A stretch of DNA of 64,000 nucleotides, from positions 1 through 64,000 of the IMG/VR virus record IMGVR_UViG_3300028829_002760. The stretch is one strand, 5' to 3'. The notes beneath the pieces were generated by a model that was not told where the DNA came from, did not search any database, and was given only the letters and a program-made list of their open reading frames with translations. Made by a program: the position numbers and the translations under genes. Below, in pieces: positions 43 through 51,055 of the stretch (positions are counted from its first letter, which is position 1; each line of letters starts with the position of its first letter). Source of the DNA: a virus.

Positions 43-3000
43 TATCTTATTGATAATTGATTTTTACTATTACTTAATTTTATAATCATATTTACATCAT
101 CACATTGTTCTCTTTTCAAATTTAAGAAGTTAAGGTAATGTCTAAACTTTTTTCTTTCTAATTCTGATTTATTATAATCTAAATTATCTGGATTAAGAAC
201 TCTTGTGTGTCCATCTTGAGATGTTACCCAAGTATTTTCAGATGCATAATTACCTTCTAATATAGTTGTACCTGGAACTAAAGGTCCTGTAGGAGGATAA
301 TTAGATCCTTCAGGGAATTCTGCACGATCTTTAGTTATATCCCAAAATTGATTAAATCTATACTTTTGCTCTTCTTTAGAATATAAAATATCATAAGAAG
401 CTAAGTTTCCATTTAACTTAGGATATTGTAATGATAAGTTTATATCATTTTTAGGATACAAGTTAAGATTTAAATATCCTGATACTTGTTCTGAGTTATA
501 TACTATAGCTTGATCAAAATTATAATCTAATACATGATGTTGATCAACACAATTTCCAGAACGTCTTCTATAGCACTCTAAGACATATTCTATAGATCTT
601 GTAGTCATTACATTTTGACCTGAGACAATTGGAAATTCTAACTCAACTCCAAATTGATTATCGTAGAAATTACAGAAACTATCACATAAGAAGTTATGTT
701 TCCATACAGTATTTAATTTAGTACTTAAGAATATATCTTTTGTAGGTAATAATAAATCTGGATGCCAATCATGGAAGCTAATCCAAAATTTATTTTTAGG
801 ATCATAACTAATTGTCCATGAAGCATCTTCAAAAATATATGAATCACCTAATTTATAAATAAGATTTCTATTTTTATCCAATTGAAAATAATCTCCTGTA
901 CCATCCGCGTTTACAGGAATATACTCTACTCTTCCTTTAAATTCATCTTTTAAATAGTAATCCTTCTTACAAAAGTACAGTACGGAATTAGAGCTGTCAT
1001 AAGTTGATTGACATCCTATACCAGCTACAGGATTATCTAAATATGGATAATCAGGAAAATCCTTAATTAATCTATATGGTAAATAAAGTAGAAACCACCA
1101 TTTCATCCCAGCTTGAGATATTTCTTGAAGTCCTTGACCATAAGTAAACACTCTTCCTTGGTTTTGTGAAATATAAAAAATTCCTGCTGGACATGATATT
1201 ACAGACAGTCTGTTCTGTGACGATCCATATTCATATGATGCATCTGCATTAGATACTGCTTGTTGTGGTTGACTAAATAAACCTCCGTCACCTAAAGTAA
1301 TTTTAGTATTTAAATCTGTTTCTAATGTATCAACACCTTGATACATAAGAGGAGATGCATTTTTAAATGTAATAAAAATACCACTTTTATTAATTGATTT
1401 AACACCAGATATTTGAGCTTGAAACTCTTTATAGTTATTAACTAGATAAATAAACCAACTATCCTTAACTGCCTCCTGTTGTTGAGGTAAAGAGTATATA
1501 ATCCTATCAGGATAATATGTATAACATAACTCAGCTACTTCAGGATCATAATATCTATTTTGAGTAAACCCTGATGAAAAATATTGATTAAATAACTTAG
1601 ATACACTTAATGAATAATCGTAAAGATATGCACTAAGTCTTCCCATTATATTAGGATCCATATTAAACATACTAGGATAATCTGTATAATTATATGGATT
1701 ATAATATTTTGCACCAGGAGAATCACTTTGCTTTCTAAAGTCTATAAGAACTTCTGATTCTACAAAAAAATCTCGAATACTAGAATTAGCTAAATAAAAA
1801 TAAGAATTTTTTACACCAAAAAATCCTGGATAGTTACCTTCAGAATCATCTGTATAATCATAATTTTTATTATCAAGATTGTAAAATGCTCTAGGAAATA
1901 CACCTGTTCCTGGTATACTTGGGCTAGAAAAATTTATTACTTCACCTAAAGCAGTTACGTCATATTTAATAGTATTTGGTTTAAACCTTGTATCAGGAAC
2001 CATACTATATAAAAAGTAATTAAATTCAAATCCATCTGGTTGACCAAATAAATAATTATTGAAAAAAATCATATTATTTTTTTCAGTATATCTATTTATA
2101 TAAGTATCACCGCCAAATATAATTGGACTTCTTGATATTTTAGTTAGATAATATTCTGTACTATCTAATGGGCAGTTATAATTAATTTCACCAATAGATT
2201 GAATTTTAGTTAGTTGTTGTTCACATGGTGTTGCAGATATTTGGAATTCACTACCTATCTGACCATACTGATTTCTAGCCTTTTCTTTTAATGCTCCATA
2301 ATGACTAGCAATACGTAAACTGTATGGTAAGTCTTTATCATCTTCATTAAATTTAGGTAGACCAGATGATGTTAAAAAAGCTGGATCACTTGTGTTATCC
2401 GTTATAGTACCTATAGTAACCAAAGATTTATCTTGAAATCCACTTTCAATTAAATGAGGTCCTATATTTACACCATTGGGATATGTAGCATCATAATAAG
2501 GTCCAGATTTTGTTCTTAAAACAACTGTATCAGATCTTCTTAAGTTATTTATTTTGTAACTGTAAAAATTACCTGTATTATCTTGATACTTTCTTACATC
2601 TTGAATATTATCTCTTATGTAAAAACTATCATCTACATTAAATCTTTTTAACTCACTATTAGAAATTTTAGACATTCCACCATAATATCCATGTGCAATA
2701 GATTGCAATCCATATTGTCTAAAAGGTAATATTGAATACATTAATTGAGCAATTATATCAGCACCTTCAGAAAAATAGAATACTAATTGATTTGCTGCAC
2801 CTAAAATTCTAAGTGGAAGTGGTAAATATGCATAAGCAGGAAATTCTATTGTACCAGATAAAGATACAGGTGCAGTTGCTCCTGTTGCTGCTGCTGCATT
2901 AATTGCTCCTGCTAAAGTTTGATCTGCTATACCAACAGATGTTGCTGGATAACCTCCTGTTATTGCAATAAATGCATCAGATATAGGTAGTAAACCAGTA

Positions 3001-47843: not shown

Positions 47844-48941
47844 ATGACAAAAGACGAAGTACAAATAAAAGCCCTTAAAGCAACAGATAATAAACAAAGA
47901 TGTGGAATAGTATTAGGTACTGGTGTTGGTAAAACTTTAGTAGGACTTAATCACATTGAAAACAATACTACATCTTTAATGAAGTGTTTAATTGTAGCAC
48001 CCAAAAAGTCAATAATCCAATCTTGGATAGATGAAGCGGGTAAATTTAATAAAGAACACTTACTAAAAAGAATGACATTTAGTACTTATTTAAGTATTAA
48101 TAAACATGATCCAAATAATTATGATGCTGTTTACTTAGATGAATGTCATAGCTTATTAGATAATCATAGAGGGTTTTTACAACTCTACAAAGGTAAAATA
48201 CTTGGTTTAACTGGTACACCACCTAAAAGAATTTATTCTGAAAAAGGTAAGTTAGTTAATGAATTTTGCCCTATAGTATTTACTTTCAAAGCAGATGATG
48301 CTATTGAAAATAATATACTTAATGATTATCAAATCATTGTACACCAAATAAATCTATCATCAGAAAAGAATTATTGTGTTAAAATGAAAAACAGAAAATC
48401 TTGGATGACTACTGAAGAACAAAATTATACTTATTGGTCACGAAGAATTGATGTTGGATCGGGAAATATGCATATGCTCAGAGTAATGAGAATGAAAGCA
48501 ATGATGGAGTATCCAAGTAAAGAAAAATATACTAAAATTTTACTTAGGAATATTCCTACAAAATGTATTGTATTTGCAAATACTCAAGAACAAGCTGATA
48601 AATTATGTAGTCATAGTTATCACAGTAATAATTCTGATTCAGAAGAAAATCTTATTGCATTTAAGGAAGATAAAATAGATAAATTATCTTGTGTATTACA
48701 ATTAAGTGAAGGTGTAAACATCCCAAATCTTAAGCAAGGTATTATTTTACATTCATATGGTAATGAGAGAAAAGCAAGTCAAAGGATTGGTAGACTTCTA
48801 AGATTAAACCCTAATGATAAAGCTATTGTGCATATATTATGTTATATGAATACAATAGATGAAAAATGGGTTAAAGATGCCTTAGAAGGGTTTGACCAGT
48901 CTAAAATTTTATGGAAAGATTATAAGGTAGGCTTAAGCTAA
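47844..48941 (+). CDS. SF2 DEAD/DEAH-type helicase (365 aa)
   Basis: Helicase motifs in order: I (Walker A) LGTGVGKT at 24-31, Ia VAPKKSIIQSW, II DECH at 99-102, III LTGTPP, IV CIVFANTQEQA, V-like LQLSEGVNIP and VI QRIGRLLRL. It is short for the superfamily, with both RecA-like domains but no extra domain. Likely a DNA or RNA helicase of replication or recombination, like T4 UvsW in a reduced form. It follows the HNH gene directly, suggesting a joint role. Confidence 0.85.
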   Translation: MTKDEVQIKALKATDNKQRCGIVLGTGVGKTLVGLNHIENNTTSLMKCLIVAPKKSIIQSWIDEAGKFNKEHLLKRMTFSTYLSINKHDPNNYDAVYLDECHSLLDNHRGFLQLYKGKILGLTGTPPKRIYSEKGKLVNEFCPIVFTFKADDAIENNILNDYQIIVHQINLSSEKNYCVKMKNRKSWMTTEEQNYTYWSRRIDVGSGNMHMLRVMRMKAMMEYPSKEKYTKILLRNIPTKCIVFANTQEQADKLCSHSYHSNNSDSEENLIAFKEDKIDKLSCVLQLSEGVNIPNLKQGIILHSYGNERKASQRIGRLLRLNPNDKAIVHILCYMNTIDEKWVKDALEGFDQSKILWKDYKVGLS

Positions 48942-48970
48942 CCTTATAATTTTTTATTATATTATAGTAT

Positions 48971-49225
48971 ATGATTAATGAAAAAACACACAAATTAGTA
49001 TTATTTAATGATGACATGCATGATTTTGCATATGTTACAGCATCTTTAATAAAATACTGTGATCATACAAATTTACAAGCCGAACAATGCGTAGTTATAG
49101 CAGATGGAGTTGGTAATTGTACAGTTAAAGAAGGTAGTTTTTTAGATATGATGGAAATTAAAACCAGTCTAGAAAGATTAGAATTGATAACAGAAATTGA
49201 AGATCATGAAAGTTATATGTATTAA
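48971..49225 (+). CDS. clpS: ClpS-like protease adaptor (84 aa)
   Basis: The chain follows Bacteroidota ClpS almost throughout: LVLFNDDMHDFAYVTASLIK (family: VLYNDDxNTFDxVIxxLI), CDHTNLQAEQC (CxHTxxQAEQC) and GNCTVKEGSF (GKCxVKxG). Asn13, Asp14 and Asp15 match the N-degron pocket residues. The family His in the V-H-x-x-G-K stretch is replaced by Asp45 (IADGVGNC). ClpS hands proteins with N-degrons to ClpAP or ClpCP proteases. A phage copy could redirect, block or change host N-end proteolysis. The start gives the family's usual length without the N-terminal extension. Confidence 0.8.
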   Translation: MINEKTHKLVLFNDDMHDFAYVTASLIKYCDHTNLQAEQCVVIADGVGNCTVKEGSFLDMMEIKTSLERLELITEIEDHESYMY

Positions 49226-49514
49226 TTCACAAGGTAAACCTGATAATATATCATTTAATGAATGGATCCAAGAAGGTGCCGTTTATACAGTATATCAAAT
49301 AGATAAAATGGGTTTACAACATGGTAAAATAGGTTTTAAATTAGAAGAAATAGAACTCACAGATGAATCATTTCCTTATGAGTTTTATGATGCTGAAAGA
49401 TTTAAACCTGTCACTCCCGAAATTTTAGAAACACTAAAACAAATGTTTGACTCTTTAACAGAATTAGAACAAACTGATTTTGGAGAAGAAGATGCAGATT
49501 TAAATAAAATATGA
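49206..49514 (+). CDS. Conserved small protein (102 aa)
   Basis: MKVICINSQGKPDNISFNEW, IQEGAVYTVYQIDKMGLQHG and KIGFKLEEIEL make a compact beta barrel-like pattern common in small Bacteroidota phage proteins. The C-terminus is acidic. I chose the ATG at 49206; an upstream TTG would add three residues. It overlaps the ClpS gene by 20 bases, so the two are likely translated together. Function unknown. Confidence 0.55.
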   Translation: MKVICINSQGKPDNISFNEWIQEGAVYTVYQIDKMGLQHGKIGFKLEEIELTDESFPYEFYDAERFKPVTPEILETLKQMFDSLTELEQTDFGEEDADLNKI

Positions 49515-49960: not shown

Positions 49961-50205
49961 AAGAATTGTATATAAAAATATTAGAAGCAAATAATGATAA
50001 ATTACCATATAATTTGACCTTATCAGATGTTTCTAAAATGAAAGAATTAGATATTTACGAATGGTATGCATATAATAAAGCTATTTCTAAAGAAAGTAGT
50101 TTTCATATAAAAGACAAATTTGAAGTTTATATAAATGAAGATTCAATAAAAATTAGAAAAGATCATGAATCTAATTTAAGAAGAAAAAATGAGTCTGGTT
50201 ACTAA
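49948..50205 (+). CDS. Small uncharacterised protein (85 aa)
   Basis: Helical first half (MKELYIKILEANNDKLPYNL) and strand-rich second half (FHIKDKFEVYINEDSIKIRK), ending basic. Overlaps both neighbours by 13 and 17 bases, a sign of coupled translation. No family recognised. Confidence 0.45.
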   Translation: MGRMKELYIKILEANNDKLPYNLTLSDVSKMKELDIYEWYAYNKAISKESSFHIKDKFEVYINEDSIKIRKDHESNLRRKNESGY

Positions 50206-51055
50206 AGTTACCAGAAAGTCTATGGTAATTAGACCTTCTGGTAGATCTACAGATTTTATTTCACCAAGTTTTGGACACGGCTGTCTTTACAATTGTAACT
50301 ACTGTTATATGAAAAGACACAAACCTGAAGGATTAAACATAGCAAAGAATTATACAGATATATTATCTGAAATAAATTCACATGCTACTTTTGATACTAC
50401 AGAAAAACCTAATCAAACTCATGATGAGTATATTACTTATGATATAAGTTGTAATGAAGATTTTGCATTACATTCTAAATATCATAAATGGAAAAAAATA
50501 TTTGATTTTTTCCTAGAACACCCTAAAGCAATGGGATCATTTGCAACAAAGTATGTTAATAAAGACTTTCTTAATTATGATCCTAAAGGTAAAATTAGAG
50601 TTAGGTTCAGTCTTATGCCTGAAAAATGGAGAAAGATATTAGAGCCAAATACATCTACTACATTTGATAGAATTATGGCAATTGACTATTTTATAGAAGC
50701 TGGTTATGATGTTCATATAAACTTTAGTCCTGTTATAGTAAATAATGATTGGTTAAAAGAATACAAAGTTTTATTTGAAAACATTAATTATTCTGTAAAT
50801 AATAAATACAAAGACAGAGTAAAAGCTGAAGTAATATTTCTTACTCATAATGAAAGTAGACACAAATATAATTTAGATAATAAATTACCTGGAGAAGATT
50901 TAATTTGGGATCCTGAAATACAGGAAACTAAAAAATCTCAATATGGTGGGAAAAATTTAAGATACAAACATGATTTCAAAGCAGAGTATATTAAACAATG
51001 GACAGAGGTTCATAATAATATTATACCCTGGAATACAATAAGATATATATTTTAG
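50189..51055 (+). CDS. SPL-family radical SAM protein (spore photoproduct lyase-like, 288 aa)
   Basis: The cluster motif CLYNCNYC (Cys32, Cys36, Cys39; CxxxCxxC) binds the 4Fe-4S cluster that splits S-adenosylmethionine. The surrounding SFGHGCLYNCNYCYMKRH and the later ITYDISCNEDFALHSKYHKW and FSLMPEKWRKILEPNTST match the spore photoproduct lyase family, followed by a TIM-barrel core and the end LRYKHDFKAEYIKQWTEV. Bacillus SPL repairs UV-made thymine dimers of spore DNA. Outside spore formers the substrate is not established. A phage copy could repair UV lesions or modify DNA or RNA. The family call is firm in motif, open in substrate. Confidence 0.75.
   Translation: MSLVTKVTRKSMVIRPSGRSTDFISPSFGHGCLYNCNYCYMKRHKPEGLNIAKNYTDILSEINSHATFDTTEKPNQTHDEYITYDISCNEDFALHSKYHKWKKIFDFFLEHPKAMGSFATKYVNKDFLNYDPKGKIRVRFSLMPEKWRKILEPNTSTTFDRIMAIDYFIEAGYDVHINFSPVIVNNDWLKEYKVLFENINYSVNNKYKDRVKAEVIFLTHNESRHKYNLDNKLPGEDLIWDPEIQETKKSQYGGKNLRYKHDFKAEYIKQWTEVHNNIIPWNTIRYIF

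Follow-up and report, generated by a model that had tools for sequence, protein, structure and literature searches.

The question that this locus raises is what a phage may do with a ClpS protein in which the His that contacts the N-terminal amine is replaced by Asp. ClpS is the bacterial protein that picks out protein N-termini for destruction. The window, which is the whole stretch of 64,000 nucleotides that was analysed, belongs to a 109,934-bp IMG/VR record. We looked at the fold and pocket of its ClpS, at its relatives in phages, bacteria and eukaryotes, and at the genes around it.

The ClpS protein of the window and its pocket

The gene and the codons of the pocket discussed below are:

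48971..49225, plus strand: clpS-like ORF of 84 aa, a ClpS core without the N-terminal extension (NTE), by ORF translation, Pfam, AlphaFold2 and PDB matches
49007..49015, plus strand: Asn13-Asp14-Asp15, equal by alignment to E. coli N34-D35-D36 of the amine site, kept
49019..49021, plus strand: His17, E. coli position 38, which completes the NDxxH motif as in UBR1/UBR2/Ubr1
49103..49105, plus strand: codon GAT of Asp45, which aligns with His66 of E. coli ClpS

The translation of ORF 48971-49225 (plus strand) is MINEKTHKLVLFNDDMHDFAYVTASLIKYCDHTNLQAEQCVVIADGVGNCTVKEGSFLDMMEIKTSLERLELITEIEDHESYMY, and residues 4-69 match the Pfam ClpS family (PF02617; E=2.2e-11, 43.8 bits with a cut-off of 23). 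The AlphaFold2 model, built on 51 homologues, has a mean pLDDT of 93.8 and is composed of strands at residues 7-12, 49-55 and 74-78 and helices at 19-30, 34-47 and 57-69. Its top PDB matches are ClpS crystal structures (Z 12.6-15.1), after which the ClpS-like domain of yeast Ubr1 is ranked (7mex, Z 9.8). The original prediction of a phage-encoded ClpS is borne out by the Pfam match, the model and the crystal structures.

When the protein is aligned without gaps to ClpS of hosts and phages, Asp45 comes to lie on His66 of E. coli, and the same placement is found in every alignment, which confirms that the conserved amine-contacting His is Asp45 here. The canonical amine-site pair Asn34/Asp35 is present as N13 and D14, while His66 is absent and Asp45 stands in its place; the NDD part of the pocket was rightly described as kept, with N13/D14/D15 equal to N34/D35/D36. 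It had also been said that a His elsewhere in the pocket would speak against this view of the pocket. His17, the last residue of NDxxH (N13 D14 D15 M16 H17), answers to that description in part, and in part only. A sequencing error behind Asp45 is ruled out, as Asp is also found in L001 and L002, two IMG/VR contigs that come from separate metagenome records; they differ from each other by 3 nt, and their ClpS is 74% identical to that of the window. There, Asp at the site is accompanied by N34D and D36K.

Position 66 in phage relatives and the inheritance of the gene

The nearest sisters of the window protein, L206 (73% identity) and L221 (70%), retain His at the site, with CVVIAHNVGKC in L206 vs CVVIADGVGNC in the window. 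Sister phage proteins of this kind (L206, L207, L126 and others) share with the window the 84-aa NTE-less family and the gene order but keep His66. ClpS is common in phages, with more than 500 stretches among the matches listed in one broad IMG/VR scan; a separate phage collection yielded no more than three ClpS, all distant and from huge phages. When IMG/VR was scanned with a DNA pattern for QAEQC....D..G, 110 stretches were returned, 98 of which were verified as phage ClpS loci with Asp (69 distinct cores); the corresponding His count is a lower bound, and the His and Asp scan counts are not comparable as rates. In the MELPEDH clade, which was fetched by its N-terminus alone and thus blind to position 66, Asp is found in 32 of 32 distinct proteins. 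The figure closest to an unbiased one comes from patterns that do not cover position 66; the 55 distinct near relatives that they retrieved have His in 40 cases, Asp in 11 and Asn in 4. In the group with a long, host-like N-terminus, one phage ClpS (L122, 4920-5237) has an Asp of its own, LVDEMKKC against LVHESKRC in its relatives.

Asp at position 66 is therefore a real, recurrent variant of phage ClpS. The view of Asp45 as a single oddity does not survive the pattern scans, given its recurrence in 98 phage loci and its fixation in the MELPEDH clade, and a survey of position 66 in phage ClpS homologues finds it recurrent rather than lone to the window protein.

Trees separate a long-N-terminus host-like group from a short phage group (SH-aLRT 95%, both sides), and among the tree rows Asp is confined to the short group, with L122, which lies outside the tree, as the exception in the long group. 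The best trees need 15-17 His/Asp/Asn changes at the site, on 69 columns and with most forks unsupported, and from these alignments only a few independent changes appear secure. Coevolution of positions 38 and 66 (His17 and Asp45 in the window) was considered and rejected. The raw counts, whose sampling is biased by the fetch patterns, are 49 for H38/D66, 19 for N38/D66, 30 for H38/H66 and 138 for N38/H66; the signal vanishes once kinship is taken into account, as independent-pair tests find only 2-4 supported pairs.

The gene has two conserved neighbours:

47844..48941, plus strand: DEAD/ResIII-type helicase ORF, upstream of clpS
49206..49514, plus strand: downstream ORF of 102 aa (ORF49206), whose start overlaps the end of clpS by 20 bp

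Among 426 viral loci the order helicase – clpS – ORF49206 includes the helicase in 333 and ORF49206 in 318, and since it is held in most loci clpS is a vertically kept core gene. ORF49206 has no Pfam family; it is predicted to form a small beta fold and a helix, followed by a disordered acidic C-tail that ends in (E/D)L-x-x-I/V. The conserved ESYM(H/Y) tail of clpS is explained by the overlap with this ORF. The matches of TerL and of the helicase beside clpS are, at low identity, to phages of Flavobacterium and Bacteroides, crAssphage included, and the phage genome encodes proteins of 1500-2550 aa; the window is probably from a crAss-like phage with a Bacteroidota host.

Just upstream of clpS, window positions 48940-48973 contain a T-run and a TATATT-like box near the ATG. 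This stretch is conserved among relatives, where it is preceded by a GGTTAA...TTAACC inverted repeat, and is a possible candidate for a short-leader promoter.

The window clpS is under purifying selection, with a dN/dS of ~0.28 against L002 and ~0.32 against L206. One explanation of Asp45 is drift in a relaxed or decaying gene, a dispensable passenger of the phage genome, and the variable C-terminal half and the several substitutions in L001 and L002 agree with it. Yet a dN/dS of about 0.3, a synteny kept in hundreds of loci and an Asp fixed across a diverse clade had already put decay in disfavour, and we hold it to be very improbable.

Asp at position 66 in other ClpS-type proteins

Among eukaryotic proteins, human UBR1, human UBR2 and yeast Ubr1 contain a type-2 N-degron domain in which the His66 column is occupied by Asp and a His is present in NDxxH (NDEHH/NDEVH/NDEYH in UBR1/UBR2/Ubr1 vs NDDMH in the window). 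These domains have these two features and the fold in common with the window ClpS (Z 9.8 to 7mex), but are located inside a giant UBR-box ubiquitin ligase, whereas the window ClpS is a free-standing 84-aa ORF with ~13% identity to them. The resemblance is either convergent or anciently shared, direct descent being possible at most. In S. pombe, type-2 N-termini are not recognised by Ubr11 when it carries D251N/H254Y, two changes with the spacing of D and H in NDxxH (PMC4447728).

In bacteria, Asp at this site is already known from Leptospira interrogans ClpS1. According to the available part of that report, ClpS1 has Asp62 for the pocket His, plus His34 and the aromatic Tyr36 in the pocket; it binds LinClpA with a Kd of 0.44 uM and at 10 uM lowers the LinClpA ATPase by 57%, with degradation of an SsrA substrate blocked (PMC12493166). 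As far as this text describes it, ClpS1 carries a natural Asp for the pocket His, like the window protein, but is a bacterial paralogue, not a phage protein, and has a 22-residue N-domain, so that it cannot stand in for a ClpS without an NTE; no N-degron binding by ClpS1 was found described there.

Among 395 Bacteroidota genomes the Asp pattern was matched twice, once by a clpS. This chromosomal clpS with Asp66 (L546, G095:C13) adjoins and overlaps an intact aat, the gene that makes N-degrons (ORFs 710-1426 and 1395-1727, minus strand). In most genomes sampled from the family of L546 clpS is found beside aat, and His is otherwise the rule there. Flavobacterial host ClpS has His in all 77 distinct sequences, the sequences having been taken as the best matches of a probe that itself has His. 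No close relatives were found in bacterial genomes when the window protein served as the query. Bacteroidota host ClpS (PF02617) has the core fold, the NDD, the QAEQC helix and a Phe at E. coli position 40 in common with the window protein, at ~40% identity; however, the host proteins have 26 residues before N34 and an invariant His66 and alpha-3 LxPxC pattern (77 distinct sequences), whereas the window protein has 12 such residues, an Asp at the site and lacks LxPxC.

Asp at position 66 is thus compatible with an N-degron role, without proving one. That the Asp swap alone implies lost or retargeted N-degron binding, as was first thought, is not supported, since Ubr1-type domains and the aat-adjacent clpS share the Asp.

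Conservation within the family also bears on this point. In a non-redundant set of 34 short proteins with Asp66, N34 is kept in 88% and D35 in 91%, against 98% each in short His66 proteins, and in the same 34 proteins Q36, A37, E38, Q39, C40, G48 and G55 are invariant. Helix alpha-3, the part of E. coli ClpS used for docking on ClpA (docking residues E79, E82 and K84), is variable in the short Asp66 proteins, and the host-invariant LxPxC pattern is gone. It is diverged in the window ClpS as well, where E79/E82/K84 cannot be confidently mapped and alpha-3 differs already in the Bacteroidota hosts. Since pocket residues are kept and alpha-3 is variable, the ligand side is better kept than the ClpA-docking side.

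These data can be set against a dead-pocket form of the decoy idea in the original prediction: N-degron binding would be abolished by His66Asp, and the protein would do no more than keep host ClpS and other clients off the ClpA/ClpC N-domain. Such a dead pocket would fit the replacement of N34, too, by Asp in L001 and L002, and the variation of position 66 between His, Asp and Asn only in the NTE-less clade, L122 excepted. It would also fit a family of 74-aa ClpS-like phage proteins (MARLxIIKNKN...; L328, L340, L344 and L367) which keep the QAEQC core but have other residues at N34, D35 and H66. However, N34 and D35 are conserved in most Asp66 proteins, Asp is the state of functional Ubr1-type domains and of the aat-adjacent clpS, and a docking helix less conserved than the pocket is the opposite of what a docking-only protein predicts; we consider a dead pocket improbable.

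The short N-terminus and a possible role in infection

The start of the ORF is fixed by a stop codon:

48965..48967, plus strand: TAG in frame with the ORF, one codon ahead of its ATG

Because of this TAG no longer N-terminus can be read for the window ClpS, and in the AlphaFold2 model strand beta-1 begins at residue 7, with only 6 residues ahead of it. The NTE that serves for ClpA pore engagement, a feature of canonical ClpS, is thereby missing. Phage Asp66 ClpS proteins have a median of 12 residues before N34 (exactly 12 in 54 of 71), in comparison to 26 in host ClpS. During hand-over in E. coli, the ClpA pore loops pull on the NTE, which enters the channel, and delivery is inhibited when its entry is blocked (PMC9663308); ClpS that lacks the NTE escapes degradation by ClpAP in vivo (PMC12974527). 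By analogy with E. coli, and across phyla, one would expect the phage ClpS to be stable and to deliver poorly, although the E. coli rule may not transfer to the ClpA/ClpC of the probable Bacteroidota host.

One option is that the phage ClpS is a working delivery adaptor that hands selected proteins of the host or the phage over to host ClpAP/ClpCP, where the short N-terminus would be enough for Bacteroidota ClpC/ClpA or would be replaced by a partner such as the ORF49206 product. The conserved pocket agrees with this, as does ORF49206, with its disordered acidic tail, its translational overlap and its co-conservation with clpS, and a delivery role was proposed for jumbo-phage ClpS in the available text of Iyer et al. 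2021 (PMC7824862). The absence of the NTE, whose engagement drives hand-over in E. coli (PMC9663308), and the divergence of alpha-3, the E. coli docking site, argue the other way, and we regard a delivery adaptor as rather unlikely.

A mechanism that fits these data better, which we put forward tentatively and as somewhat short of probable, is that a pocket-competent, extension-less ClpS competes with host ClpS, its amine site being built from Asp45 and His17 much as in Ubr1. A clpS core protein inherited in the crAss-like phage group would keep its pocket for free protein N-termini; the Asp45 carboxylate would replace the His contact and, together with His17, most likely make a Ubr1-like amine site rather than a dead pocket. 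The phage ClpS could then capture N-degron proteins, occupy the N-domain of host ClpA/ClpC, or both, without efficient delivery, and the N-degron branch of host Clp proteolysis would be restrained or re-biased during infection. We infer ligand binding, ClpA/ClpC docking and the inhibitory outcome; the fold, the residues, the missing NTE, the recurrence, the synteny and the purifying selection on which they are based were observed. If the protein is a decoy, the missing NTE and the diverged third helix are better grounds for it than the Asp swap. A wider claim, that the NTE-less ClpS of a large group of crAss-like Bacteroidota phages repeatedly switched its amine site from His to a Ubr1-like Asp and acts as a virus N-recognin that binds N-degrons and withholds them from ClpAP/ClpCP, we hold to be doubtful.

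Phage-encoded ClpS is known from jumbo phages (Iyer et al. 2021, PMC7824862); these belong to different phage groups from the window, and no pocket analysis was found in the available text of that paper. A literature search found no papers on ClpS in crAss-like phages, and a crAss-like phage family with an NTE-less clpS among its core genes, and with recurrent His-to-Asp change in it, appears not to have been described. What the present data appear to add is that a large group of aquatic Bacteroidota phages conserves clpS as a core gene. If the pocket works, the group offers a natural mutational series on N-terminal residue recognition, from the bacterial His type to the Ubr1 Asp type, and possibly a virus-made inhibitor of N-degron proteolysis.

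Two further genes of the window can be mentioned. At 50189-51055 a radical SAM protein is encoded that matches spore photoproduct lyase (PF20903, 6.5e-25) and is possibly a phage DNA-repair gene, and at 62255-63436 a DUF2201 putative metallopeptidase with a VWA-like domain is found.
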